Source of the DNA: a virus
Strand: one strand, 5' to 3'
DNA: 22,823 nt
IMG/VR virus record: IMGVR_UViG_3300017719_002879
Span: 1 to 22,823 of that record
The notes below the pieces were generated by a model. It worked only from the letters and a program-made list of their open reading frames with translations, did no database searches and was not told the origin of the DNA. This document shows, piece by piece, positions 2,925 to 19,826 of this stretch (its first letter is position 1; the number at the start of each line of letters is the position of its first letter). The translations under genes and the position numbers were made by a program.

Positions 2925-5411
2925 ATGTTCTACACTTACGCTAAACACTACGGCAACAAAATCCTCTACAGAGGTATCAGCGAGAAAGGCAATCGCCAAA
3001 TTGGCAATGACACCTTTCAGCCTACTTTGTTTGTCAAATCTGATAAACCTAGTAAGTACAAATCCATGTTCGGAGAAACCGTTTCTCCCATCCAATTCGA
3101 TACAAATAAAGAAGCTGCCGAATTTATAAAAACCTATTCTGATGTTTCTAACTTTCCTATCTACGGACAATCAGATTGGTGTTATCAATACCTCACTCAA
3201 AAATTCCCAGAAGAAGTTCAGTGGGATCAAAGTAAAATCAAAGTTGTTTCTATAGATATCGAGACTACTGTTGACAACGGATTTCCTGACGTATTTAATC
3301 CTTTAGAGCAAGTCACTCTGATTACGATACAAGATGCTTACACCAAAAAGATTATCACATGGGGCTGCGGTGAATATACTCCTACTGAACATACTGCACA
3401 CCTGAATGTTGATTATAGATGGTGTGAAGATGAGAAGGATCTGTTCACTAAATTTATTAATTGGTGGGCGCAAGATCCACCAGATGTTGTGACTGGCTGG
3501 AATCTGGCACTGTTCGATATTCCATATCTTGTCGCCCGTACAGACAGATTGTTTGGCGAAGACATGAAGAAAGGTTTTAGTCCTTTCAACTTAGTCCACG
3601 CAAAGACTGTAACAATGGGCAGTCGTGATTTTCTCAAGTACGATATTTGGGGTGTAGCACAGTTAGATTATCTTGACCTATATAAAAAGTTCACCTATGT
3701 TACTCGTGAGTCTTACAAGTTGGACTTTATCACAGAAGTAGAACTTGGACATAAAAAGCTAGAGAATCCTCATGATTCTTTCAAAGACTTTTATGAGAAA
3801 GACTGGAATCTTTTCGTAGAATATAACATCATCGATACTGTGTTGGTAGATCAACTAGAAGACAAACTCAAGCTGATTGAACTTTGTCTAACAATGGCAT
3901 ACGATGGTAAGATGAACTATTCTGATGTTGCATCTCCTGTAAAAACGTGGGACTGTTTGCTATACAATCATCTATGGGAACAGAATGTTGTTTTTGGTCA
4001 GAAAAGTCCAAAACAAGGTAGACAAATCGCAGGTGCATATGTACAAGAACCTGTTCCTGGCCAGTATGAGTGGGTAGAAAGCTTTGATGCTACTTCGCTT
4101 TATCCTTCTATCATTATGCAATACAATATGTCACCAGAAACTCTTGTGCCAGGCGAAGTGTACGATGTCACAGTTGACGGAATGTTAGAGAGAAAATATG
4201 AATTTGATGGTAAGTATGCAGTCGCTGCAAACGGACAATGCTTCTCAAGAAACAAGCTAGGATATATGCCAGAAATTGTACAAAAGTTCTTCGATGACCG
4301 TCAGAAATACAAGAAGCTGATGAAGAAATCAGAACAACTTCTTGAAGACACAAAAGATCCCAAGCACAAAAATGATATCGCAAAGTACAACAACTTTCAG
4401 ATGGCAAGAAAGATTCAGCTTAACTCTCTTTATGGTGCGATGGCTAACGAGTACTTTAGATTCTACGATGACAGAATCGCAGAAGGCATCACGCTTTCTG
4501 GTCAGTATATTATTCGTGCTACTGCATCTGCTCTCGATACATTCGTGAATAAAATAGTAGGTACAACTGGCGAGACGTACAGTTTCTATTCTGACACAGA
4601 TTCATGCTACATTACTCTGAAAGCAGTTGTTGACAAATATTTTGCAGACAAAGATGTTGCTAAGATAGTTGATGTTCTAGATCAGATTGGCACAGATCAA
4701 ATTGAGCCATGTATATCAATAGCGATGGATGCATTGTCAGAGTATTCTCACGCATACGAGAAGAAGATATTCTTTAAGCGAGAAGCTATTGCAGATAAAG
4801 CTATCTGGATCGCAAAGAAACGATATGCAATGAATGTATATGACAACGAAGGCACTCGCTATCAAGAACCTAAACTCAAAGTCATGGGTCTTGAGATTGT
4901 TCGTTCGTCTACTCCTGCTCCTGTTCGTGAGTCTCTGAAAGAAGCAGTAAGATTGACACTTACAACAGACGAGAAGACTTTGCAGAATTTTATTCAAGAT
5001 ACCAGAGAGAAATTTAAGAATATGTCTGCCGAAGCGATTGCTTTTCCTAGAGGCTGTAACAACATGGGAAAATACTCTAGCAAAAAAGATATCTATTCGA
5101 AGGGTTGTCCTATACATGTTCGTGGCAGCTTGCTATATAATTATTATCTCGAAAAGAATAATCTCACTCACCGATACGAACAAATTCAAGAAGGTGACAA
5201 AATTAAGTTCTTGTATCTCAAAGAACCTAATACACTACGAGAAAATTGCATATCATTTAATGGCAAACTGCCAGAAGAATTCAATGTACATAGATATGTC
5301 GATTACGATTTGATGTTTCAAAAAGCTTTCTTAGACCCAATGGATACGATTGTAAAATCACTGAAATGGGACACCGAAGAGAAAAATACACTTGAGGATT
5401 TATTTTCATGA
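2925..5411 (+). CDS. 43: Family B DNA polymerase, T4 gp43-like
   Basis: This is the replicative polymerase, 828 residues, compared with 898 in T4. The 3'-5' exonuclease motifs are Exo I SIDIET (D111, E113), Exo II in VTGWNLALFDIPYL, and Exo III YNIIDTVLVD. Polymerase motif A is FDATSLYPS (D388), motif B is KIQLNSLYGA, motif C is YSDTDSCY (D557, D559) and the KxY-type motif is AKKRY. Both activities look intact. The C-terminus ends LEDLFS, a short hydrophobic tail that could contact the sliding clamp as the T4 tail does (inference). I chose ATG 2925 because GGGAG lies five bases upstream; a TTG four codons earlier overlaps that site and is unlikely. A perfect promoter precedes the gene, and its stop overlaps the next start as ATGA, so the dehydrogenase is probably co-translated. 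Confidence 0.97.
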   Translation: MFYTYAKHYGNKILYRGISEKGNRQIGNDTFQPTLFVKSDKPSKYKSMFGETVSPIQFDTNKEAAEFIKTYSDVSNFPIYGQSDWCYQYLTQKFPEEVQWDQSKIKVVSIDIETTVDNGFPDVFNPLEQVTLITIQDAYTKKIITWGCGEYTPTEHTAHLNVDYRWCEDEKDLFTKFINWWAQDPPDVVTGWNLALFDIPYLVARTDRLFGEDMKKGFSPFNLVHAKTVTMGSRDFLKYDIWGVAQLDYLDLYKKFTYVTRESYKLDFITEVELGHKKLENPHDSFKDFYEKDWNLFVEYNIIDTVLVDQLEDKLKLIELCLTMAYDGKMNYSDVASPVKTWDCLLYNHLWEQNVVFGQKSPKQGRQIAGAYVQEPVPGQYEWVESFDATSLYPSIIMQYNMSPETLVPGEVYDVTVDGMLERKYEFDGKYAVAANGQCFSRNKLGYMPEIVQKFFDDRQKYKKLMKKSEQLLEDTKDPKHKNDIAKYNNFQMARKIQLNSLYGAMANEYFRFYDDRIAEGITLSGQYIIRATASALDTFVNKIVGTTGETYSFYSDTDSCYITLKAVVDKYFADKDVAKIVDVLDQIGTDQIEPCISIAMDALSEYSHAYEKKIFFKREAIADKAIWIAKKRYAMNVYDNEGTRYQEPKLKVMGLEIVRSSTPAPVRESLKEAVRLTLTTDEKTLQNFIQDTREKFKNMSAEAIAFPRGCNNMGKYSSKKDIYSKGCPIHVRGSLLYNYYLEKNNLTHRYEQIQEGDKIKFLYLKEPNTLRENCISFNGKLPEEFNVHRYVDYDLMFQKAFLDPMDTIVKSLKWDTEEKNTLEDLFS

Positions 5412-6139
5412 ACGTAGCAATTATTGGTTATGGCTTTGTTGGCAAAGCAACAGAGTATCTACTGAAAAAAACAAACTGCACAATTCAAATACATGATCCA
5501 AAAAAATATTTACTTTGTGACTTTGATACAGTAGAGTATGCATTTGTCTGTGTTCCTACACCTACTACTGGCGGCGAACTTGATATTAGTATTCTGAAAG
5601 AAGTGTACGAGCAATATAAAGATGTTTGTCAGCTCGTCATTCGCAGTACTATTGGACCAGAACAAGTAAAAGAATTTCCTCAAGCACACATCATGCCAGA
5701 GTTTCTGCGTGAGCGTTGTTGGAAAGACGATGTAGATGATCCTGAGCTGCCATTGATTCTGGGTATAACGGACTACGATGCAGAGTTAGTAGAAATCTTT
5801 GAAGTGGTAGAGAAAACACTACATATTTACGAGCCTATAGAAGCGAGTATGTTTAAATTGATGCGTAATACTGCACTGGCTATGAGAGTAGCAGTTGCTA
5901 ACGAGTTTTATGAAATTTGCCAGCGCAACGGTGTAGACTATTCTCTAATCAGCGAAAGGCTTTCTCATGATGCATGGACAGGAGGTACTCATTGGGATGT
6001 TCCTGGTCCGGACGGCAAAACTGGCTTTGGTGGCAGTTGCTTTCCAAAAGACTTGACACACATGAAAACATTGTGTTATAATGATCTTAATATTTTTGAC
6101 ACAGCTTTAAAAATTAACGATGAACGGAGAAATAAATGA
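5408..6139 (+). CDS. Short UDP-glucose/GDP-mannose dehydrogenase-like protein
   Basis: This 243-residue protein has an N-terminal NAD-binding Rossmann motif (IGYGFVG, residues 6-12), then VCVPTPT, RSTIGP and PEFLRE. The central-domain helix reads K150-LMR-N154, and the catalytic loop GFGGSCFPKDL has C211. These are the hallmarks of nucleotide-sugar dehydrogenases, which oxidise UDP-glucose to UDP-glucuronate with two NAD. The usual enzyme is near 400 residues; here the C-terminal sugar-nucleotide domain after the catalytic loop is missing, and the protein ends about 30 residues later. It could be a reduced enzyme, one that pairs with another protein, or a decaying copy, though all NAD-domain and catalytic motifs are kept. 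It overlaps gp43 by four bases (ATGA) and uvsX likewise, and the uvsX promoter lies inside its 3' end. Confidence 0.8.
   Translation: MNVAIIGYGFVGKATEYLLKKTNCTIQIHDPKKYLLCDFDTVEYAFVCVPTPTTGGELDISILKEVYEQYKDVCQLVIRSTIGPEQVKEFPQAHIMPEFLRERCWKDDVDDPELPLILGITDYDAELVEIFEVVEKTLHIYEPIEASMFKLMRNTALAMRVAVANEFYEICQRNGVDYSLISERLSHDAWTGGTHWDVPGPDGKTGFGGSCFPKDLTHMKTLCYNDLNIFDTALKINDERRNK
6053..6082 (+). promoter_or_regulatory. Sigma70-type promoter inside the dehydrogenase gene, serving uvsX
   Basis: TTGACA at 6053-6058 and TATAAT at 6077-6082, both perfect, with an 18-base spacer. It lies in the coding sequence of the upstream gene, 53 bases before the uvsX ATG. The predicted start near 6089 would let the recombinase-helicase genes be transcribed independently of gp43. 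Confidence 0.75.
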
Positions 6140-10562: not shown

Positions 10563-10591
10563 TTGACATTGTACTTCCTAATGAGTATAAT
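10563..10591 (+). promoter_or_regulatory. Consensus sigma70-type promoter for the HTH gene
   Basis: TTGACA at 10563-10568, a 17-base spacer and TATAAT at 10586-10591, all perfect. The predicted start is about 10598, at the left edge of an inverted repeat, giving a leader of about 84 bases. Confidence 0.85.
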
Positions 10592-10598
10592 GTTTAGA

Positions 10599-10619
10599 CA
10601 CTCAAAGAATTTGAGAGTG
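10599..10619 (+). promoter_or_regulatory. Inverted repeat at the transcript 5' end (hairpin or operator)
   Basis: CTCAAA at 10601-10606 pairs with TTTGAG at 10610-10615 around a GAA loop; CA and TG extend the stem after a two-base bulge. It begins at the predicted +1 of the 10563 promoter, so it could be an RNA-stabilising 5' hairpin or an operator for the winged-helix protein encoded downstream. Confidence 0.5.
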
Positions 10620-10681
10620 ATCTTGAATAGCGACCGCAAAGTCGTTTAATTTTAATGTTAATAATCAAAGGTGATTATATT

Positions 10682-10969
10682 ATGGCTACAACTACTACAA
10701 CTAAGGCTGCGAAGGCAGCACCTGTTAAGAACCAGAACGAGAAGATCCTTGCTTTCCTTCGATCTGGCCAAACTTTGACAGCGGCTCAAGCAGCTTCAAT
10801 GTTCGGTGTAAAGACGGTCTCTGCTCGTGTTGCAGAACTTCGTGCAGCTGGACAGCCTATTTACGCTAATGTAAACAAGTCTGGCAAGACTGCTTATCGT
10901 CTAGGTCGTCCTAGTCGTGCAATGATTGCTGCTGCATACGCTGCTGTTGGTTCTTCAGTATTTAGCTAG
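10682..10969 (+). CDS. Winged-helix DNA-binding-like protein (HTH_39 type)
   Basis: The start is ATG 10682, eight bases after AAAGGTG; an in-frame upstream ATG at 10655 lacks a site and adds an unlikely tail. The 95-residue protein has a Thr/Ala/Lys-rich N-terminus. A helix-turn-helix follows from about residue 20 to 75, with ILAFLRSGQTLTAAQAASMFGV, then SARVAELRAAGQPIY and the wing KSGKTAYRLG. This matches the pattern of small phage HTH proteins annotated as HTH_39. A C-terminal Ala-rich helix follows. It has its own strong promoter with an inverted repeat at +1 and a terminator behind it, so it is a stand-alone early unit that may regulate itself. Whether it is an activator, repressor or abundant DNA-coating protein cannot be told. 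Confidence 0.78.
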   Translation: MATTTTTKAAKAAPVKNQNEKILAFLRSGQTLTAAQAASMFGVKTVSARVAELRAAGQPIYANVNKSGKTAYRLGRPSRAMIAAAYAAVGSSVFS

Positions 10970-10980
10970 TGTAAATATCC

Positions 10981-11011
10981 TGGGCATGATGTGAAACTGC
11001 CCACTCTTTTT
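10981..11011 (+). terminator. Rho-independent terminator after the HTH gene
   Basis: TGGGCA at 10981-10986 pairs with TGCCCA at 10998-11003 around an 11-base loop, followed by CTCTTTTT. It lies 12 bases after the HTH stop and 24 bases before the next start. Confidence 0.65.
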
Positions 11012-11034
11012 AGTTAGTTAAGTGTGAGGGTATT

Positions 11035-11565
11035 ATGGCAAATCATGTTGATAATTATATTGAAGTCATTGGCAACGATGCAGCAAAGGTAGAATTCGAA
11101 CGAATCTTTCAACAGATTGATTCTTGTGAATTTCAGTCTCTCTATGACGCAGAGTTCCTTCCTGTGATTACAGAAACTGGCAAAGTTGGTATAGATACAG
11201 TCGGCGCAAAGTGGGCTAATCTAGAAGATTTCGGTGAAGACTATGCTCTTGTTACTTCAGCATGGTCTGCTGTATTACCTTTTCTCGATGAACTTGGATG
11301 TCATCTAGAAGATTTTGATCCTAAAGTACAGCTTACTTGTCAGTTTACTGACGAAGGCTACAATTTTGTTGGGTGTGCATTGTTTCACGATTCAGATGTA
11401 GAATCAGACGAAGAATATTATGATGATCTGGTTGAATTGCGTTGCCTGTCTCTAGGCGAAGAAAATACAGAAGATTATGATATATGGGAAGATGAAGATT
11501 GGTATGATTTCATCGACACACGAATTGAATTAATGAAAAATGATTTGCTTGAGTGTGCTGCATGA
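11035..11565 (+). CDS. Acidic hypothetical protein, possible YubB/Api92-like ferredoxin fold
   Basis: This 176-residue protein starts at ATG 11035 behind GAGGG. It opens with MANHVDNYIEVIGNDAAKVEFERIF, resembling the beginning of YubB/Api92-like phage proteins (ANWxxNxLxIxG, then a helix with a F). The C-terminal half is strongly acidic (DSDVESDEEYYDD, EENTEDYDIWEDEDW). Such acidity could be DNA mimicry or simply a soluble tail. No catalytic motif or membrane segment is present. It overlaps the next gene by four bases (ATGA). The family assignment is tentative. Confidence 0.75.
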   Translation: MANHVDNYIEVIGNDAAKVEFERIFQQIDSCEFQSLYDAEFLPVITETGKVGIDTVGAKWANLEDFGEDYALVTSAWSAVLPFLDELGCHLEDFDPKVQLTCQFTDEGYNFVGCALFHDSDVESDEEYYDDLVELRCLSLGEENTEDYDIWEDEDWYDFIDTRIELMKNDLLECAA

Positions 11566-11990
11566 ATAACATGAAATGGACAGGATTTACTTGCTCCACT
11601 TTCGATCTATTACATGCAGGTCATGTTACAATGTTGAAAGAAGCAGCACAATCTTGTGATTATCTTATCTGTGGACTACAAACTGATCCAACTATTGACA
11701 GACCGACAAGTAAGAATAAACCTATTCAATCTTTGGTTGAAAGATTTATCCAACTTGATGCTATAAAATATGTTGATGAGATTGTTGTTTATCAAACAGA
11801 AAAAGACCTTGAAGACCTTCTTCTTACACTGAATATCAATGTTCGTTTTGTGGGAGAAGAATATCGTAATGTCAGTTTTACAGGTAAAGATATCTGTGAA
11901 AAACGAGATATTGAGATATTCTACAACAAAAGAGAACACAGCTTCTCTACCACTGAACTAAGGGAGCGAATCTATGCCTCTAAACAATAG
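11562..11990 (+). CDS. Cytidylyltransferase-like nucleotidyltransferase (TagD/RfaE-C type)
   Basis: The start ATG 11562 overlaps the previous stop as ATGA; a GTG three codons earlier is a weaker choice. The 142-residue protein shows the HxGH nucleotidyltransferase fold: GFTCSTFDLLHAGH (HAGH at residues 18-21), a strand CDYLICGLQTDP, the segment VRFVGEEYRNVSFTGKD, and the C-terminal signature STTELR (129-134). The closest pattern is glycerol-3-phosphate cytidylyltransferase or the ADP-heptose synthase C-domain, which join CTP or ATP to a phosphorylated sugar or alcohol. It could supply an activated precursor to the GT2 enzyme about 0.5 kb downstream, but the substrate is unknown. The next ORF overlaps by 17 bases. 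Confidence 0.82.
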   Translation: MNNMKWTGFTCSTFDLLHAGHVTMLKEAAQSCDYLICGLQTDPTIDRPTSKNKPIQSLVERFIQLDAIKYVDEIVVYQTEKDLEDLLLTLNINVRFVGEEYRNVSFTGKDICEKRDIEIFYNKREHSFSTTELRERIYASKQ

Positions 11991-12219
11991 AGTACTAGAA
12001 CTGTATCTTGAAGATTGGGAGTTTAATATGAACGATGATGATGTAAAACGAAAGATTGCTAAGGTTGTTGTTGCAGGACAACGAGCATTAGACCCTAGCT
12101 TCAAATCTTTTTGGAATGATAAGGCACAAAAATTAGCGACTAAATATAATGTGAACTTATCTGAAATTAAGCAATGTCCGGAGTTTTATAATGAAGTTGA
12201 AATTAGTCGCATCCACTAA
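11974..12219 (+). CDS. Small hypothetical protein, 81 aa
   Basis: ATG 11974 lies seven bases after AGGGAG, inside the end of the cytidylyltransferase gene. A second in-frame ATG at 12030 also has a good GGGAG and could give a 62-residue form. The protein contains DDDVKRKIAKVVVAGQRALDP and FKSFWNDKAQKLATKYN, mostly helical and charged. It overlaps the next gene by 29 bases. No known domain. Confidence 0.7.
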   Translation: MPLNNRVLELYLEDWEFNMNDDDVKRKIAKVVVAGQRALDPSFKSFWNDKAQKLATKYNVNLSEIKQCPEFYNEVEISRIH

Positions 12220-12538
12220 AATCTTTAAAAATATTGGCAACATGGAAGTCCCGATGTGGCGGTGCGTAGATGGTAATGAATATATCATCGAACGCTTTGA
12301 TGAAGAACCTACATGGCCTGATGTAGGCAAAGCAGTTACATATTTTCAACACATTCTTGAGGGTAAACTAGAGGTAGATGTGAAAGAAATTTATTCCGGG
12401 TTTGAGTTGTACGATAACAATTCTCTAACTCACGGTGAAAACTTTCAACTTGAAAACGGCGGGACTATAGACTTTCCTGCTGAAGATGTAACCAAGATTG
12501 ATGTGACGGAAATGATGGATGGAATCAAAGGACTGTAG
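12191..12538 (+). CDS. Hypothetical protein, 115 aa
   Basis: ATG 12191 follows GGAG by seven bases and lies within the previous gene. The protein begins MKLKLVASTKIFKNIGNME and runs through WRCVDGNEYIIERFDEEPTWP to an acidic end. Alternating hydrophobic and charged segments suggest a small alpha/beta fold. It overlaps the glycosyltransferase gene by 20 bases. No motif was recognised. Confidence 0.7.
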   Translation: MKLKLVASTKIFKNIGNMEVPMWRCVDGNEYIIERFDEEPTWPDVGKAVTYFQHILEGKLEVDVKEIYSGFELYDNNSLTHGENFQLENGGTIDFPAEDVTKIDVTEMMDGIKGL

Positions 12539-13238
12539 ATTTACAATAGGTTATACCTATTACGATGAACCTGAACTGCTCCTTGAACAAATATCGCTTT
12601 GGAAGAAATATCCTCATCAAGTAGAAATTATTCTAGTAGATGACGGCTCTCAAAAATATCCAGCATATGACATCGTAAAAGACCTTGAACTGCCAAATTT
12701 TCATCTTTATGTAGTAGATGAAGATTTGGGGTTCAATAGTCACGGGTGTAGAAACCTCATTTCAAAAGTTGCTTCCTGCGACTTTATATTATTTTCTGAT
12801 ATCGATTGTCAGTTTGCGCCTGAAGTCATCGCATTTCTAAAAACAGTATCCTTCAATACAGATAGAATTTATAAATTTTGTATGTATGTAACTCAATCTT
12901 TCAAGTATTTTCCTTGGCCAAGTCATCCAAACGTATTCATAGTTGACAGATATAAATTCTGGGAAGCAGGCGGATATGACGAATCATTTACTGGCTGGCA
13001 TTATGGTGATCGTGAGTTTATTGACCTTCTGGAAAAAGTGGCTACTGTGTCAAAAATATCAGAACACTTAGGATTTACTGTAGTTCGTGGTGCAAGAAGA
13101 ACTTATGTAGATACTTCGGTAGATAAAATAACATATGATAATGAAACAATGGTTATAAAAATACCAAGAAGAATGCCTGATAATCTTTCTGGAACAGTAA
13201 AAGAAAAAATTAACTTCTCGTATTCACAATTGTTATAA
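12519..13238 (+). CDS. GT2-type glycosyltransferase (GT-A fold)
   Basis: This 239-residue protein has the GT-A glycosyltransferase layout: IGYTYYDEPELL at the N-terminus, LVDDGS at residues 39-44, the metal-binding DID triad D94-I95-D96 in FILFSDIDCQF, and GYDESFTGWHYGD (152-164), the acceptor-side loop seen in the galactosyltransferase C-domain type. A nucleotide-sugar donor is expected; the acceptor could be phage DNA, host surface glycan or a phage protein. It starts at ATG 12519 inside the preceding gene with only a GGA site. Its TAA stop lies inside the late promoter at 13234, so its 3' end and the late module's control element share bases. Confidence 0.85.
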   Translation: MESKDCRFTIGYTYYDEPELLLEQISLWKKYPHQVEIILVDDGSQKYPAYDIVKDLELPNFHLYVVDEDLGFNSHGCRNLISKVASCDFILFSDIDCQFAPEVIAFLKTVSFNTDRIYKFCMYVTQSFKYFPWPSHPNVFIVDRYKFWEAGGYDESFTGWHYGDREFIDLLEKVATVSKISEHLGFTVVRGARRTYVDTSVDKITYDNETMVIKIPRRMPDNLSGTVKEKINFSYSQLL

Positions 13239-13241
13239 ATA
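13234..13241 (+). promoter_or_regulatory. T4-type late promoter overlapping a stop codon and abutting a start codon
   Basis: Exact TATAAATA. The TAA of the GT2 gene (13236-13238) lies within it, and the next gene's ATG is only five bases after its last A. With T4 spacing, +1 would be base 13247, the A of that ATG. Confidence 0.8.
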
Positions 13242-13246
13242 CAAGT

Positions 13247-14410
13247 ATGATGAAATTTACAAAATTTTTAGCTGAAGAAGCGAACGATGATAAGCTAACT
13301 CACCTTGAGCATGTGGAAGATCATGTTGTTCACGGTGGTTCGGAAGGGTTCGCACACGCATTTCATACTCTCAATGGCGTTCACGACCAGCTTCGTGGTG
13401 CTAAGAACGACACTAAGATTACTATGAAATACGACGGCAGTCCTTCTGTTGTATTCGGTACTCATCCAGAAACTGGTAAATTCTTTGTCGGTTCTAAGTC
13501 GGTATTCAATAAGAATCCAAAGTTGAACTTTACACCAGAAGACATTCAAAAGAATCACGGACACGCTCCTGGTCTAGTCAGAAAGCTAACGACCGCATTA
13601 GAACATCTTCCTAAAGTACATGACGGTAAAGGCATCTACCAAGCTGACATTATGCACACCAAAGAAGAGATGAAGCACGAAGGCCATCGTGTCTCTTATA
13701 AAACTAATACTCTTACCTATCATCACCCTGCTGATTCAGAACACGCACAAAAGGCAGTGAACTCACACATAGGTGTCGCTGTACACACCGCATACGAGGG
13801 TAAGAACTTTGCAGACATGAAAGTGAAGCAAGGTCATGTACCTGAGTTGCAAGAGCATCCAGATGTACACCAGCTACCTATTCACCACGATGTTTCGCAG
13901 ACCAATTACAATTCTGCAAATCAGGCAGACTACAAGAAGCATCTAGATGCCGCTGTATCAGAATTCAAGAAAGCACCTAAAGAAGCTCATGAAGCAGTAT
14001 CTAAGCATGTGTTGCCACTCAAAACTTACATGAACGCAACAGTACGAGACGGCTCGCAGCCTACACATGCAGGATTTGCACAACACTATTCTACTGCAAT
14101 GAAAAAGAAAGTCGCTGGCGTAAAGACTGACGCAGCAAAAGCGAAACACACAAAAACGCATGATGATACTATGAAGCATGTAAACGGCAATAAAGAGCAT
14201 ATCGAAAGTGCCATTAAAATGCAACAGCATCTACAAAAAGCAAAAACTGTATTAACAGATGCCTTGAACTCACATAATACAATAGGACACGAAATAGCAG
14301 GTCAACCTGCAAGCCCAGAAGGCTATGTTGTCCATCATAACGGTAAACCATCTAAGTTCGTTCATAGACATGAATTCAGCGCAGCAAACTTTGCAAGGGC
14401 AGGTGACTAA
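13247..14410 (+). CDS. His-rich putative nucleotidyltransferase/ligase-fold protein with capsid-targeting-like N-terminus
   Basis: This 387-residue protein starts at ATG 13247 or the adjacent ATG 13250; no ribosome site fits between the promoter and these codons. The N-terminus MKFTKFLAEEA resembles the capsid-targeting peptide of T4 internal proteins. Next comes a helical region, then MKYDGSPSVVFG with K61-Y-D-G64, a KxDG motif as in the catalytic lysine site of ATP- or GTP-dependent ligases and capping enzymes. The segment GKFFVGSKS follows. Near the C-terminus EGYVV (358-362) and K370-FVHR look like motifs IV and V of that superfamily. I recall similar unnamed T4-like cyanophage proteins with KWDGAPA in the same place. 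Histidine is very abundant, 41 of 387 residues. The gene is led by a late promoter and joined to the next by TAATG. Ligase-like activity is inference. Confidence 0.7.
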   Translation: MMKFTKFLAEEANDDKLTHLEHVEDHVVHGGSEGFAHAFHTLNGVHDQLRGAKNDTKITMKYDGSPSVVFGTHPETGKFFVGSKSVFNKNPKLNFTPEDIQKNHGHAPGLVRKLTTALEHLPKVHDGKGIYQADIMHTKEEMKHEGHRVSYKTNTLTYHHPADSEHAQKAVNSHIGVAVHTAYEGKNFADMKVKQGHVPELQEHPDVHQLPIHHDVSQTNYNSANQADYKKHLDAAVSEFKKAPKEAHEAVSKHVLPLKTYMNATVRDGSQPTHAGFAQHYSTAMKKKVAGVKTDAAKAKHTKTHDDTMKHVNGNKEHIESAIKMQQHLQKAKTVLTDALNSHNTIGHEIAGQPASPEGYVVHHNGKPSKFVHRHEFSAANFARAGD

Positions 14411-15051
14411 TGGCTGATAAGCATATGGTATTCAGTTTCGGACGATTTAATCCTCCCACTGCTGGACACAGTAAAGTGGTAGATCATGTGATGAAGACCG
14501 CAGAAACACATGGCGCCGATCACAAAGTAATTGTAAGTCATTCACAAGACAAGAACAAGAATCCTCTCCACGGCCAGCACAAGGTCGATTATCTAAAGCA
14601 TATTCATCCTAATACGAATGTCGAAGCATCGAGTAAAGAACATCCTCACTTCATGGCACACTTGAAGAAGATGCACAAAGACGGATACACTCACGCCACA
14701 ATGGTTGCAGGCTCTGACAGAGTAGAAGAGTTTCAGAAACTCGCTGATAAATACAATGGTCCCAACGGCGAATATCATTTCAAACATTTGAAAGTGGTAT
14801 CAGCAGGTCACAGAGATCCAGATTCAGAAGGCACAACTGGTATCAGTGGAACTAAAATGCGTTCACACGCATCGAACAACGATTATAAATCATTCAAGTC
14901 CGGCTTACATCCAAATGCTTCAGACGAACACGCTAAGAAGCTATACAATGCTACTCGCAGTGGCATGGGTCTAAACGAAGGCGAGACACGATTATCTTTT
15001 GGAGCATTTTTAAATGAACAGAGAAGCAGTATACGAGACACTGAAGATTGA
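14410..15051 (+). CDS. His-rich HxGH-type nucleotidyltransferase
   Basis: This 213-residue protein has the nucleotidyltransferase signature FGRFNPPTAGH (residues 10-20, with T17-x-G19-H20) and the second motif ISGTKMR (145-151), as in NMN adenylyltransferase and related cytidylyltransferases. It should transfer a nucleotide from an NTP to a phosphorylated acceptor; NAD metabolism is one option but the substrate is not visible. Histidine makes up 21 of 213 residues, matching the upstream gene. Near the C-terminus SFGAFLNE (196-203) has the same form as the capsid-targeting-like peptides found at the N-termini of neighbouring proteins. It joins the previous gene by a one-base TAATG overlap and overlaps the lysozyme gene by 38 bases. 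Confidence 0.82.
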   Translation: MADKHMVFSFGRFNPPTAGHSKVVDHVMKTAETHGADHKVIVSHSQDKNKNPLHGQHKVDYLKHIHPNTNVEASSKEHPHFMAHLKKMHKDGYTHATMVAGSDRVEEFQKLADKYNGPNGEYHFKHLKVVSAGHRDPDSEGTTGISGTKMRSHASNNDYKSFKSGLHPNASDEHAKKLYNATRSGMGLNEGETRLSFGAFLNEQRSSIRDTED

Positions 15052-15475
15052 TGAAGGGGTAGTATATGCAGTATACGAAGATCACCTCGGATATCCAACC
15101 TTCGGAGTCGGTCATCTTGTCCTCGAAAGTGACGAGGAATTCGGAAAGCCAGTTGGAACTCCTGTTGGTGAAGAAAGAGTCAGGGCGTGTTTTGACAGAG
15201 ACCTTGATATTGCCATTGGAGAGTGCAGCATTCTATACGGAGAAGGGCAATTTGCAGATTTTCCGTCCGAAGTCCAGCAGATCCTGATTAATATGATGTT
15301 CAACATGGGACGTCCTCGTCTCAGCGGATTCAAAAAGTTCAATGCCGCAATAGAAGCAGGCGACTGGACAGAAGCGGCAAAAGAAGGTAGAGATTCACGA
15401 TGGTACAATCAAGTCACCAATCGTGCTGAAAGATTAATGGTAAGGCTTGAGAACTTGGCAAGTTTAGATAGATAA
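15014..15475 (+). CDS. e: T4-type lysozyme (endolysin, GH24)
   Basis: This 153-residue muramidase cuts the peptidoglycan sugar backbone. The catalytic triad of T4 lysozyme is present in the right order and spacing: E14 (in IDEG), D23 (in YEDHLGY) and T29 (in PTFGVGH), corresponding to E11, D20 and T26. The C-terminal half keeps NMMFNMG, FKKFNAAIEAGDW and SRWYNQVTNRAERL, all close to T4. No signal peptide is present, so release should need a holin. The start ATG 15014 has GGAG nine bases upstream, inside the previous gene. It differs from T4 e in having no late promoter of its own immediately upstream; it sits within the late module begun at 13234. Confidence 0.95.
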   Translation: MNREAVYETLKIDEGVVYAVYEDHLGYPTFGVGHLVLESDEEFGKPVGTPVGEERVRACFDRDLDIAIGECSILYGEGQFADFPSEVQQILINMMFNMGRPRLSGFKKFNAAIEAGDWTEAAKEGRDSRWYNQVTNRAERLMVRLENLASLDR

Positions 15476-15492
15476 TAAAACGGAGAATAATA

Positions 15493-16209
15493 ATGTTATC
15501 ACCTGAGTTTCATGCACACGCATGTATTTCAAGACTAGCGTACAAAGACCTAGACAAAGATGTTCGCAAAGAATGGAAAGCACTTGGCTTTACGAGTGTC
15601 AAATTCTTTAGTATCGAAGGCGCACAGGCTTATGTACTAGGCAACAAAGAGCGAATCACTGTAGCATTCCGTGGCACTGAGCCAAAGGAAAAGAGTGATG
15701 TCTTTGCTGACTTAGAGACTACTCACGAACGAGGCTTTCACGAAGGCTTCTATGAAGAGTACGAAAAGCTAGAATTGTCAGTACACGGTGAAGTCGCTAA
15801 ACTTATGGGACGAAAGAAGCGTCCAGTATTTGTAACTGGTCACAGTCTCGGTGCTGCAATCGCATCTATTTTCTGCTTTCATTATCCAACAGCAGAAGCA
15901 TTGTACACATTCGGTTGTCCTCGTAATGCGACACCAAGTAAGTGTAAAGAACTCACAGTGCCACACTATCGCACTGTAAACAATAACGATATTGTTCCTA
16001 GTATGCCGCCAGCTCTACTCTGGTACAAGCATCACGGCGAGCTATGTTACATTAACTTCTATGGTAATGTTCGTAAGATGACTGCATGGCAGAGATTCAA
16101 AGACGGATGGCGTGGTCGAAGAGCAGCTTGGAAGAAGAAAGAAGTTTTTGACGGCGTTAGAGATCACCTCATGAATAATTACTGCAAGCACTTACAGGAC
16201 AATGACTAA
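15493..16209 (+). CDS. Class 3 lipase-like alpha/beta hydrolase
   Basis: This 238-residue protein shows the lipase class 3 pattern: TVAFRGTE near the oxyanion hole, the nucleophile elbow VTGHSLGAA with S118, TFGCPRN after strand beta6, D166 in NNNDIVPSMPP, and a histidine at 180 or 181 in WYKHHGELCYI. The triad is therefore complete. The enzyme should hydrolyse acyl esters of glycerides or phospholipids. No signal peptide is visible, so it would act in the cytoplasm, at the membrane after holin damage, or as a virion protein. Its place directly after lysozyme suggests a contribution to lysis, which is inference. The start follows GGAG by eight bases; the stop overlaps the next ATG by one base. 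Confidence 0.85.
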   Translation: MLSPEFHAHACISRLAYKDLDKDVRKEWKALGFTSVKFFSIEGAQAYVLGNKERITVAFRGTEPKEKSDVFADLETTHERGFHEGFYEEYEKLELSVHGEVAKLMGRKKRPVFVTGHSLGAAIASIFCFHYPTAEALYTFGCPRNATPSKCKELTVPHYRTVNNNDIVPSMPPALLWYKHHGELCYINFYGNVRKMTAWQRFKDGWRGRRAAWKKKEVFDGVRDHLMNNYCKHLQDND

Positions 16210-16546: not shown

Positions 16547-19345
16547 ATGGCATCAAAAATACAGTTTAAACGAGGCACTACAACACAGAGCAATGCACAC
16601 ACTGGTGCAGAAGCTGAAATTATCATCAATACAACTAAAGACACTATTGTTGTACATGATGGCTCTGAGCAAGGAGGATTTGAAGCTCTGCGTTCAGATT
16701 TAAGTAACCTAGACTCAGCTGTTCCAGCAGATAATATAGGATCTGTTGATTGTGGGTTATACGGTAGCGGATTGTTTACTGCAGGTACATTTTCCTCAGC
16801 ATCACTGTCACAAACAATAGATAATCCTAACGATTATGATACAAGCGCAAGTGACCAGTTTGGTGTTTATTCTGTTGCAACATCAGGCAACTATACTATT
16901 GTTGGCGCAAAAAGCGAAGACGATGCTAGTGATCCTAGTACAGGTAAAGCATATATCTTCAATAATTCTACAGGTGCGTTAGTTCATACACTAGATAATC
17001 CTAATGCTCACGGCACTGGCAATAGCGATGAGTTTGGCCATTCAGTTGCAATCTCAGGTAACTACGCCGCTGTTGGCGCAAGAGGAGAAAGTTCTGCTGC
17101 TTCTAACACTTATGCTTCAGGTAAAGCATATATCTTCAATGTAACTACAGGCGAATTGTTACAGACACTAGCTAATCCTAATCCTTATGGTACAGCTCTA
17201 GAGGACCAGTTTGGCTACAAAATGGCAATGTCAGGTGACTATGTTATTATTGGCGCACCACAAGAAGACGCTGCTGGCGGTACAGGTTCAGGTAAAGCAT
17301 ATATCTTCAATGTGTCTACAGGTGCGTTAGTTCATACACTAGATAATCCTAATGCCGCCGCCAACAGCTACTTTGGCTGGGCAGTAGCGATATCAGGCAA
17401 CACTGCGATTGTAGGTGCTTGGGGTGCTAGTAGTTCTTCAGGTAAAGCATATATCTTCAATGTGTCTACAGGTGCATTGTTACATACACTTGATAATCAG
17501 AATGCTTATGGTACAAGTGATGGTGATAGATTTGGATTCGCTGTTGCAATATCAGACAACTATGCGATTGTAGGTGCACACCAGGAAGACGATGCTGGCG
17601 GTACAGGTTCAGGTAAAGCGTATATCTACAATAATTCTACAGGTGCGTTAGTTCATACACTAGATAATCCTAATCCTTATGGTACAAGTCAGTATGACAG
17701 TTTTGGCTATTCAGTTGCAATATCAGGCATCACTGGGATTGTTAGTGCGTATGCTGAAGGCGATGCTGGGGGTACTCGGTCAGGTAAAGCGTATATCTAC
17801 AATGTAACTACAGGAGAATTACTAGAGACACTAGATAATCCTAATGCTTATGGTACAAGTCAGGATGACTACTTTGGCCATTCAGTTGCAATTTCAAGCG
17901 ATTACATTGTGGCTGGCACCTTTGGTGAAGACGATGCTGGTGGTGACCGTTCAGGTAAAGTATATATCTACGAAGTGGAGAGGGAAGCAGGAAATGAAAT
18001 TACAGCGCCAGGAGCTCCTACTATAGGCACAGCAGCTTCAGTCAACGCATCAACTGTTGCGGTACAATTCACTGCCCCTGCTGAAGATGGTTATGCGACA
18101 ATTGAAACATACACGGCAACATCTTCTCCTGGCGGTATTACTGGTACACTAAGTCAAGAGGGATCAGGTACAATTACTGTAACTGGCTTGACTGAAAACA
18201 CTTCATATACATTTACAGTAACAGCGACTAATAGTTACACTACTGGCCCTGCTAGTTCTGCAAGTAACTCTGTTGTTCCTGTACCACCTCCACTAGATTG
18301 GGATGATTTTTCATCAATTGCTACTAATACAGAGACAGTATATATTGGTAAGAGTGTAGCAATAGGACCTAATTACTATGCAACCGGCGGCGAATCTGCG
18401 AATAACACAATTTATGTTTATAATAACAGCAATGGTGGATCACGTTATACGATAAGCGTACCTGTTAATTCCAGCCTCGCACCCCGAGCTGGTAAGTCGA
18501 TGGACATGTACGGGGACTATTTAGTTGTTTCCGACTACTGGGGCAAAGATAGCTCTAGCCATGACCGTGGTAGAATGTGGGTATATGACTTATCTCAAAG
18601 TACTGCAAGCAATGCTTTCGTTTTTAAGAAGACGAGCCCTGCAACATCATCAGGCAGTTTTGCTTCTAGTGTAACTATTAATAGTACTTTAATAGCGGCA
18701 AATGACAGCGGTACTGATAATATTTCCATTTATAATTATAGTGGGGTTTTACAACATACTCTTACCAGATCCTCTATTAGCGCAACCGGATCCGGTTATC
18801 CTTATAATATCAAGCTAACAGAAGATTATCTTTTCATAGGCAATAACGGCGGAAGTGTATATCAGGTCAATTTGTCAGATTATTCATTAGAAAGAACCAT
18901 AACAGGATCCAGCAGCGGATATTTTAGTCGAACTATGAATACATCTTCTGATGGAAGTAGACTTATAGTTTCTGCCCCATATGAAAGCACTCCATTACAG
19001 GCATCTGGCGAAATGGGAGGAAAAGTATATGTGTATGATACTTCTGACGGAAGCCTCGTCAGATCCTTTACTCAGCCTAGCTCAAGTGGGTACAAGTTAG
19101 GCATGGGCGAAGCTGAAGGAAATACTGGGGGAGTTGCTGTTTCATCTAGTCATGCGTTCATAGCCAATAGGCTCGGAAGCACCAGCGTTCTGTATGCATA
19201 TCGTTTGTCTGACGGTACTCTAGAACACAGTTTTTATGCGACTAACTCAAAACATATCGATTCAGTCAATGTCTTAGGAACTGATTTAGTTATTGGATCG
19301 CCAGGTTCAAAGCAAACTCTTTTATACCGAGCCGACGATTCGTAA
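16547..19345 (+). CDS. Tail-fibre/adhesin protein: Mtd_N-like head, two predicted seven-bladed beta-propellers, Fn3 linker
   Basis: This 932-residue protein starts with KIQFKRGTTTQ and VVHDGSEQGG (about residues 4-46), the pattern of the N-terminal domain of Bordetella phage Mtd and other fibre proteins that dock on the virion. Residues of about 85-484 hold seven FG-GAP-like repeats with core FGxSVAISGNYxIVGA, DDAGGTGSGKAYIFN and TLDNPNAYGT. The first strand pair and the final SGKVYIYEVE would close a seven-bladed propeller. Residues 487-577 are a fibronectin type III domain (APGAPTIGTAAS, then TVTGLTENTSYTFTVTATNS). A second, more diverged set of about seven blades fills 585-932 and ends LLYRADDS. 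There is no signal peptide. Propellers of this type bind sugars or proteins, so host recognition is likely. The gene follows the coiled-coil gene by five bases, with GGAG upstream. Confidence 0.82.
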   Translation: MASKIQFKRGTTTQSNAHTGAEAEIIINTTKDTIVVHDGSEQGGFEALRSDLSNLDSAVPADNIGSVDCGLYGSGLFTAGTFSSASLSQTIDNPNDYDTSASDQFGVYSVATSGNYTIVGAKSEDDASDPSTGKAYIFNNSTGALVHTLDNPNAHGTGNSDEFGHSVAISGNYAAVGARGESSAASNTYASGKAYIFNVTTGELLQTLANPNPYGTALEDQFGYKMAMSGDYVIIGAPQEDAAGGTGSGKAYIFNVSTGALVHTLDNPNAAANSYFGWAVAISGNTAIVGAWGASSSSGKAYIFNVSTGALLHTLDNQNAYGTSDGDRFGFAVAISDNYAIVGAHQEDDAGGTGSGKAYIYNNSTGALVHTLDNPNPYGTSQYDSFGYSVAISGITGIVSAYAEGDAGGTRSGKAYIYNVTTGELLETLDNPNAYGTSQDDYFGHSVAISSDYIVAGTFGEDDAGGDRSGKVYIYEVEREAGNEITAPGAPTIGTAASVNASTVAVQFTAPAEDGYATIETYTATSSPGGITGTLSQEGSGTITVTGLTENTSYTFTVTATNSYTTGPASSASNSVVPVPPPLDWDDFSSIATNTETVYIGKSVAIGPNYYATGGESANNTIYVYNNSNGGSRYTISVPVNSSLAPRAGKSMDMYGDYLVVSDYWGKDSSSHDRGRMWVYDLSQSTASNAFVFKKTSPATSSGSFASSVTINSTLIAANDSGTDNISIYNYSGVLQHTLTRSSISATGSGYPYNIKLTEDYLFIGNNGGSVYQVNLSDYSLERTITGSSSGYFSRTMNTSSDGSRLIVSAPYESTPLQASGEMGGKVYVYDTSDGSLVRSFTQPSSSGYKLGMGEAEGNTGGVAVSSSHAFIANRLGSTSVLYAYRLSDGTLEHSFYATNSKHIDSVNVLGTDLVIGSPGSKQTLLYRADDS
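16943..17990 (+). repeat. In-frame tandem repeats encoding propeller blades (period mostly 171 bp)
   Basis: The GGTAAAGC segment that encodes GKAY or GKVY recurs at 16943, 17120, 17291, 17441, 17612 and 17783, with a variant at 17954. The steps are 177, 171, 150, 171, 171 and 171 bases, all multiples of three. Stretches of dozens of bases around each are nearly identical between copies, pointing to recent duplication or homogenisation. Confidence 0.85.
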
Positions 19346-19383: not shown

Positions 19384-19548
19384 ATGTTAAAAAAGTGGCT
19401 GTCAAAAAGACTAGAAGAAAGAACAACACTTGATGGCGCTGTGCTGATAGCAGCAGGCGTCATTTTTCTTCTATTTAAACCATTCGCTACACTAGCGGCA
19501 TATGCTGCTATTCTGTATGGCGTATACACAACGGTAAAAGCAGAATGA
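19384..19548 (+). CDS. 54-aa membrane mini-protein (pinholin-sized)
   Basis: ATG 19384 follows AAAGGAG by nine bases and the ORF ends at TGA 19546-19548, overlapping the next ATG as ATGA. The protein has a basic helical head (MLKKWLSKRLEERTTLDG), then two closely spaced hydrophobic segments, AVLIAAGVIFLLF (19-31) and PFATLAAYAAILYGVY (33-48), and a short charged end. A two-helix membrane hairpin of this size fits small holins or antiholins and other mini membrane proteins. It lies just upstream of a basic protein and the spanin-like pair, which favours a lysis role, but this is inference. Confidence 0.75.
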   Translation: MLKKWLSKRLEERTTLDGAVLIAAGVIFLLFKPFATLAAYAAILYGVYTTVKAE

Positions 19549-19826
19549 AATCATTTAAAGAATTTTTAGAAGAAGCAAGAGGCGAAGACTCTAAAGGTCA
19601 CTACAGATCAACAGAGTCGGGTGCTGGAATGACACGCAAGGGCGCAAAAGCAGCAGGTGTTAAAACTGCTGTCACTACTCCTCCAAGCAAGCTAAAGAAA
19701 GGTAGCAAGGCTGCAGCCAGACGCAAATCATTCTGTGCTAGAATGGGAGGCATGAAAGGGCCGATGAAAGACGAGAAAGGTCGTCCTACTCGTAAAGCAA
19801 TGTCACTGAGAAGGTGGAACTGCTAA
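19545..19826 (+). CDS. Basic Lys/Arg/Cys protein with capsid-targeting-like N-terminus
   Basis: This 93-residue protein begins MKSFKEFLEEARGED. The first eleven residues match the form of the T4 internal-protein capsid-targeting peptide (MKTYQEFIAEA), which is cut by the gp21 head protease after the Glu. The rest is strongly basic. It contains KLKKGSKAAARRKSFCARMGG and a C-terminal RKAMSLRRWNC, a signature I recall from many T4-like cyanophages, where it is annotated only as a domain of unknown function. Two cysteines and the basic patches suggest DNA or RNA binding, perhaps zinc. It is coupled by ATGA to the mini membrane gene and by TAATG to the i-spanin-like gene. Packaging into the capsid with the DNA is a hypothesis. 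Confidence 0.8.
   Translation: MKSFKEFLEEARGEDSKGHYRSTESGAGMTRKGAKAAGVKTAVTTPPSKLKKGSKAAARRKSFCARMGGMKGPMKDEKGRPTRKAMSLRRWNC

Follow-up and report, generated by a model that had tools for sequence, protein, structure and literature searches.

A gene pair encoding a DUF6267 protein and a HIGH-superfamily nucleotidyltransferase appears to be transcribed together late in infection and to supply a nucleotidyl-transfer module packaged in the phage head, a reading that we hold at a probability of about 0.55. The pairing of the genes, their conservation, and their targeting peptides carry this reading, together with the modeled fold of the second protein and the published presence of its homologues in virions. 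The window, by which we mean the whole stretch of 22,823 bases analyzed from IMG/VR virus record IMGVR_UViG_3300017719_002879, has a T4-type gene order in which genes for DNA polymerase, UvsX, and a DnaB-type helicase precede the pair and a tail protein gene follows it. All of the elements named in a sequence-only reading of this DNA (the ORFs, TAATG, KYDG, EGYVV, GRFNPPTAGH, ISGTKMR, and SFGAFLNE) are present where that reading had placed them. The features on which we rely are as follows.

13234-13241, plus strand: T4-type late promoter octamer TATAAATA, starting 13 nt before the gene 1 ATG
13247-14410, plus strand: gene 1, DUF6267 protein, 387 aa (Pfam PF19782, E=5e-94; phrog_455, E=2e-86)
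13247-13276, plus strand: N-terminal T4-type capsid-targeting sequence MMKFTKFLAE of gene 1 (F4, F7, L8, and E10 in exact register)
13427-13438, plus strand: KYDG, motif I-like, residues 61-64, with the candidate nucleotidyl-accepting Lys61 at the end of predicted strand 57-61
13640-13648, plus strand: Q132-x-D134, motif III-like, 82/82, inside predicted strand 130-138
13784-13789, plus strand: H180-T181, motif IIIa-like, H180 in 82/82, predicted strand 175-184
14318-14329, plus strand: EGYV, motif IV-like, 82/82 (EGYVV at residues 358-362)
14354-14368, plus strand: K370..R374, motif V-like, both residues in 82/82
14410-15051, plus strand: gene 2, HIGH-superfamily nucleotidyltransferase, 213 aa (CTP_transf_like, 3e-7; phrog_3041, 6e-64)
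14440-14469, plus strand: GRFNPPTAGH, the (H/T)xGH signature of HIGH nucleotidyltransferases, residues 11-20
14842-14862, plus strand: ISGTKMR, second nucleotide-binding signature, residues 145-151
14995-15018, plus strand: C-terminal capsid-targeting-like peptide SFGAFLNE of gene 2, residues 196-203, conserved with diverged flanks
19545-19826, plus strand: DUF6321 gene, the third tagged gene in the window, starting MKSFKEFLEE in exact T4 register (Pfam PF19846, 1e-13)

Elsewhere in the window, a second, distinct HIGH-superfamily nucleotidyltransferase (11553-11990) lies 1.3 kb upstream of the pair and is heptose-1-phosphate adenylyltransferase-like (phrog_7878, 4e-34). A phage lysozyme gene (15014-15475; tail-lysozyme-like by its PHROG match) shares 38 nt with the end of gene 2, its ATG falling within the SFGAFLNE codons, and a class 3 lipase (Lipase_3, 4e-17; 15493-16209) is encoded shortly downstream of the pair; a lipase-like protein has been reported in S-CREM1 virions (PMC9964418). 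A tail-type protein of 932 aa (16547-19345) contains many GDYAVVGA..GKAYIFNVSTGALVHTLDNPN repeats that look beta-propeller-like by eye. At 1335-2867 and 5408-6139, the window encodes a beta-glucosyl-HMC-alpha-glucosyltransferase-like domain (phrog_842) and a UDP-glucose dehydrogenase-like protein, which together suggest glycosylated DNA bases in this phage.

Pairing, distribution, and late promoter of the two genes

The two genes are joined by a TAATG overlap (14408-14412), and PHROG 455 joins their families. Gene 1 matches Pfam PF19782 across residues 18-383 with 316 bits, above the curated cut-off of 27; DUF6267 is a Pfam family of unknown function, for which a literature search found nothing. 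Of 50,697 phage records searched by tblastn, 471 contain gene 1 and 533 contain gene 2; most are from T4-like phages of Synechococcus and Prochlorococcus, with further carriers in Pelagibacter phage HTVC008M, Stenotrophomonas phage DLP6, and Methylophilales phage Melnitz. At IMG/VR loci the DUF6267 gene usually lies directly before gene 2, overlapping it or a few bases away, and the two are directly adjacent in most loci that have both. Seven ORFs (L111, L123, L127, L131, L134, L135, and L148) encode them as a single polypeptide. The adjacency and the fusions indicate that the genes are functionally coupled, in agreement with their earlier description as a pair. Public labels for these families vary: a cytidylyltransferase annotation is common for gene 2 homologues, while homologues of gene 1 or gene 2 in metaG-MbCM1 (H167), S-MbCM25 (H197), and phage 121Q (H237), and in phrog_4808, are labeled ribonucleotide reductase A, apparently a propagated misannotation.

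The late promoter proposed from the sequence is likewise borne out, as the octamer occurs near the start of 29 of 81 DUF6267 genes compared with 46 of 727 other ORFs at the same loci (p=1e-12). Its -13 spacing is identical in the close relatives L007, L008, L011, L038, and L039. Under the T4 geometry for late promoters, this spacing would put the transcription start at the start codon itself and make the gene 1 message leaderless.

Conserved motifs and predicted folds

Gene 1 had been described as carrying ligase or capping-enzyme motifs in their usual order, with the conservation of Lys61 as a key point, and both hold across the family. Among 82 nonredundant DUF6267 proteins (<85% identity, ranging down to about 30%), K61, D63, G64, Q132, D134, H180, E358, G359, V361, K370, and R374 are invariant (82/82). 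By our motif assignment, these residues match motifs I-III-IIIa-IV-V of RNA/DNA ligases and capping enzymes in set and order, with the difference that motif V has Arg at +4, not Lys at +2. H19, H22, E24, P66, P74, N263, K333, F377, and N381 are also invariant, and we know of no nameable counterpart for them in ligases.

An AlphaFold2 model of gene 1 built from a 67-sequence alignment (pLDDT 91.7, pTM 0.88) places the motif residues on or beside predicted strands; helices are inserted between IIIa and IV, and residues 1-12 form a disordered segment (pLDDT <50). Foldseek comparison of this model with the PDB gave no match at E<0.001. Among the PDB matches listed, DNA ligases account for 5 of 50, none of them significant (6dt1, 6p0a, 1dgs, 3jsl, and 9a6z, comprising the enzymes of T4, human Lig1, and three bacterial LigA); in a viral structure library, several RNA ligases and an NAD ligase are among the matches that follow DUF6267's own. 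This enrichment has p of about 1e-4 under an assumed base rate of 1% and with related entries that are non-independent, and we regard the likeness of the modeled fold to ligases as suggestive. The structural comparison that the sequence-only reading had called for thus gave gene 1 no significant ligase match, nor did it show the fold to be unrelated.

Profile comparison is similarly graded. In hhalign, DUF6267 scores p=0.017-0.022 with T4 RNA ligase 1 (Rnl1) and p=0.07-0.41 with Rnl2 across shallow and deep profiles, and the alignment pairs its EGYV with EGYV of Rnl1; since 4 of 24 unrelated control families also reach p<=0.024, the Rnl1 match is not significant against controls and we do not count it as proof. 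A sequence search of DUF6267 against PDB chains found no relative. DUF6267 and Rnl1 share KxDG, EGYV, and the following Lys, and their motif IV-V spacing is similar (12 residues from E358 to K370 in DUF6267, 13 from E227 to K240 in Rnl1), whereas in DUF6267 a large helical insert (about 223-341) separates IIIa from IV and no domain follows motif V. With LigA, the NAD+-dependent DNA ligase to which three of the weak structural matches belong, DUF6267 shares a conserved N-terminal helical element before motif I but lacks the OB, zinc, and BRCT regions; its invariant N-terminal H19/H22/E24/D25 presumably do not correspond to the known residues of the LigA Ia domain. The gene 1 chain ends in a helix 13 residues past R374, with no OB fold or motif VI after motif V, and hence gene 1 is neither a standard DNA ligase nor a standard capping enzyme. 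On the combined motif and model evidence, DUF6267 likely belongs, as a divergent member, to the covalent lysyl-nucleotidyltransferase superfamily that includes RNA/DNA ligases and capping enzymes.

Both nucleotide-binding signatures of gene 2 are well conserved in 33 sequences: R12, P15, G19, and H20 of GRFNPPTAGH are invariant and G11, N14, P16, and T17 nearly so, while in ISGTKMR S146 and R151 are invariant and G147, T148, and M150 nearly so. Its AF2 model (pLDDT 88.5) matches NadD best in the PDB (8aih, E=1e-5), and nearly all matches at E<0.001 are NadD/NMNAT. As modeled, gene 2 therefore has an NaMN/NMN-adenylyltransferase fold, the part of the structural comparison that did return a clear relative. 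The NMNAT-type assignment refers to the fold only, because gene 2 reaches only E of about 0.02, far below cut-off, with the NCBIfam models for NadR and NMNAT; for this reason NMNAT was dropped as a sequence-level family. A NadR-type C-terminal kinase domain is absent from the gene 2 chain.

Capsid-targeting peptides and virion proteomes

In the T4 capsid-targeting sequence, packaging depends on residues 4 and 7 and cleavage on residues 8 and 10, a register shown by mutation for IPIII (PMC9026906). The start of gene 1, previously called capsid-targeting-like, has exactly this register, and the strict pattern recurs in 57 of the 82 DUF6267 proteins. The DUF6267 protein of the cultured Stenotrophomonas phage DLP6 is likewise tagged and opens with MMKFTQFLAES. 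SFGAFLNE of gene 2, which had also been singled out, recurs in relatives as SFSKFLVE, SFGLYLKE, SFSMFLKE, and DFATFLTE. A strict tag is present at one end of 20 of 52 nonredundant gene 2 proteins, compared with 0.27 expected from shuffles; it is N-terminal in 11 and C-terminal in 9 (0.04 and 0.23 in shuffles) and at both ends in none, moving from the N- to the C-terminus between lineages and still conserved. This recurrence above shuffled sequences, at one end and never both, indicates that SFGAFLNE is a real, conserved peptide, and we consider it a candidate C-terminal targeting label. T4 Alt is processed at its C-terminus, and C-terminal propeptides thus exist (PMC9026906). In L073 and L076-L078, the gene 2 C-terminal tag leads into a fused DUF6321-like tail; because the DUF6321 protein of the window itself starts with the same label, the tag may be portable. 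A literature search found nothing linking capsid targeting with cyanophages beyond one T4 head review.

To place these peptides in a genomic context, whole-genome ORF sets were searched for the exact 4/7/8/10 register, for which shuffled sequences give 0.02-0.18 matches per genome. In T4, the register matches 2 of 257 ORFs, IPII and IPIII. In S-CREM2 it matches 3 of 202 (a SAM hydrolase, an APH/ChoK-like kinase, and the cytidylyltransferase), in S-SCSM1 1 of 267 (NMNAT), and in S-SM1 1 of 238 (cytidylyltransferase T4-GC190), so that each of these three cyanophages with proteomes has its gene 2 homologue among the matches. All five cyanophage matches are enzymes detected by mass spectrometry in purified virions (PMC10665884, PMC9602691, PMC3037559); the association of register and virion detection in S-CREM2 has a Fisher p of 0.008. 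The S-CREM2 SAM hydrolase (ORF6, 3837-5081) and APH/ChoK-like kinase (ORF14, 10579-12846) carry the exact register at their N-termini, which likely explains their packaging, an explanation that the available portion of the S-CREM2 proteome paper does not give. S-SZBM1 has two register matches, neither matched to a virion protein, and the tag of its virion-detected cytidylyltransferase is one residue short of exact register.

Mass spectrometry has detected gene 2 homologues (phrog_395/3041) in purified virions of S-SM1 (T4-GC190), S-SCSM1 (ORF91), S-SZBM1 (S-SZBM1_140), and S-CREM2 (ORF154) (PMC3037559, PMC9602691, PMC9146016, PMC10665884). These tagged proteins are syntenic with gene 2 in most cases and, unlike gene 2, have an N-terminal tag and an extra C-terminal domain. 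S-CREM2 virions also contain gp156, a Pol-beta-type protein (21.4 bits, cut-off 21) encoded two genes from the cytidylyltransferase.

The DUF6267 partners of these homologues are untagged where present, namely in S-SZBM1, S-CREM2, and S-SCSM1, and are distant from the gene 2 homologue in the latter two; the S-SM1 DUF6267 is T4-GC71. DUF6267 is absent among the reported virion proteins of S-SZBM1 and S-CREM2 and is not labeled virion in S-SCSM1. That untagged copies go undetected fits the tag rule, and packaging of tagged DUF6267 proteins is its prediction. The virion packaging envisaged for both proteins is supported for gene 2 through its homologues in four cyanophages, while our literature search found no report of any DUF6267 protein in a virion. 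S-SCSM1 ORF89 and ORF90 were considered as a virion DUF6267 and rejected, as neither matches the Pfam family; the true S-SCSM1 DUF6267 is ORF257.

Tagged genes with a PD-(D/E)XK-like pattern (NADLIV...GISAKYG) lie directly upstream of DUF6267 at four loci (L123:2695-3933, L131:2125-3366, L134:2755-3996, and L117:2724-3995), and visual inspection shows similar patterns in SSM1_188, HTVC008M gp126, and S-SCSM1 ORF90, the last a virion protein.

Proposed role and competing explanations

In relatives, the DUF6267 gene is accompanied by an AAA_33/Zeta-type (PNK-like P-loop) kinase at 21 of 82 loci, ten of them fused to gene 2, by a DxDxT phosphatase-like protein, assigned by motif only, at 9 of 82, and by a Pol-beta nucleotidyltransferase at 6 of 82, three of them fused to gene 2. 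Several of these neighbors carry the tag; none of the three genes was found on the 22.8-kb contig. RNA end-repair systems comprise kinase, phosphatase, ligase, and Pol-beta enzymes, with RlaP and PNK-HAD among those described (PMC7824862), and we therefore favor an injected nucleic-acid end-repair or modification module. Phage RNA-repair modules (Pnkp kinase-phosphatase, RNA ligase, and RlaP Pol-beta nucleotidyltransferase) are described as expressed in the cell rather than packaged in the head and, unlike the pair, lack a HIGH nucleotidyltransferase.

The module could operate as follows. The targeting peptides, N-terminal in gene 1 and C-terminal in gene 2, would bring both proteins into the prohead core, where the prohead protease would clip each after the LxE site present in its tag. 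Given the T4-type address label on both genes, the pair probably enters the host alongside the phage DNA, and the clipped enzymes would then act before phage gene expression. K61 of gene 1 would take up AMP, and gene 2 would serve as an NMNAT/NadD-type adenylyltransferase. The likeliest job would be nucleic-acid end repair or modification, perhaps early RNA-end repair; NAD-coupled adenylylation would be a variant of it. Since NMN is released by NAD+-dependent ligases and the fold of gene 2 is one that turns NMN into NAD+, an NAD-coupled loop is attractive but unproven. In its most elaborate and speculative version, which we rate as quite unlikely, AMP from NAD+ would pass through DUF6267 K61 to host or damaged nucleic acid (or protein), gene 2 would return the released NMN to NAD+, and fuller versions would also package the PNK-like kinase, phosphatase, and Pol-beta nucleotidyltransferase. 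Such an adenylyl-transfer machine would be a head-delivered end-repair kit against RNA- or DNA-cleaving and NAD-depleting defenses, in place before expression begins.

The fold of gene 2 would also suit an injected NAD+ salvage function, in which gene 2 remakes NAD+ from NMN early in infection and blunts NADase defenses; DUF6267 would then be its partner or its regulator, not a ligase-like enzyme. There are precedents both for phages that resynthesize NAD+ and for NAD/ADP-ribose enzymes packaged in virions (PMC9503650). The kinase fused to gene 2 in ten relatives recalls the arrangement in NadR. In Pfam, however, that kinase is AAA_33/Zeta-like, which we take to lie outside the NadR kinase family; the subthreshold NadR/NMNAT profile scores also argue against salvage, and the invariant ligase-type residues of DUF6267 would be left unexplained. 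We consider this alternative unlikely. That DUF6267 is no nucleotidyltransferase at all, but a new, unrelated fold (such as some other enzyme or a head protein that binds nucleic acid) with convergent KxDG, EGxV, and K..R, is also doubtful: the lack of a significant fold match or of a profile match above controls would suit it, as would invariant residues such as H19, H22, and E24, whereas five separate motif positions in the right order on strands, the enrichment of polynucleotide ligases among weak structural matches from two independent libraries, and the agreement of E-to-K spacing with Rnl1 point the other way.

A further explanation concerns the virion rather than the enzyme: these could be ordinary late metabolic enzymes, in keeping with the common cytidylyltransferase annotation, that stick to virions, with the peptide a short N-terminal helix that has no packaging role. 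The authors of the proteomes allow for carry-over of such proteins from lysate through CsCl purification. Against this stand the exact agreement of the peptide with the mutationally defined IPIII register, the finding that every register match in S-CREM2, S-SCSM1, and S-SM1 is an enzyme detected in virions, and the conservation of a peptide that has switched termini between lineages, and we find it improbable. A head-packaged nucleotidyl-transfer module remains our preferred reading. It resembles T4 IPI-III and Alt, which have N-terminal capsid-targeting sequences, in tag register, late promoter, and proposed delivery with the DNA; it differs in its cargo, a ligase-like protein and an enzyme with the NMNAT fold where T4 has small basic proteins or an ADP-ribosyltransferase, and in that one tag, that of gene 2, is C-terminal.

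Overall, the interpretation offered by the sequence-only reading is partly supported. Its statement that no such system was described must be qualified, as virion NMNAT/cytidylyltransferase-like proteins appear in papers of 2010-2023, without a link to a targeting sequence or to DUF6267. Virion-borne gene 2 homologues are thus already known; we did not find described the likely biochemical class of DUF6267, the targeting code in marine phages, the switch of the tag between ends, or the wider module. The pair is widespread in hundreds of T4-like marine phages, cultured ones included, yet is filed as hypothetical or cytidylyltransferase. The T4-type targeting code yields a simple rule for predicting from sequence which enzymes such phages inject and makes the DNA-delivered cargo of cyanophages and pelagiphages directly testable. 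To our knowledge, no head-packaged ligase-like enzyme is known, and DUF6267, if ligase-like, would be the first, which would suggest that these phages open an infection by repairing or modifying nucleic acid of the host.
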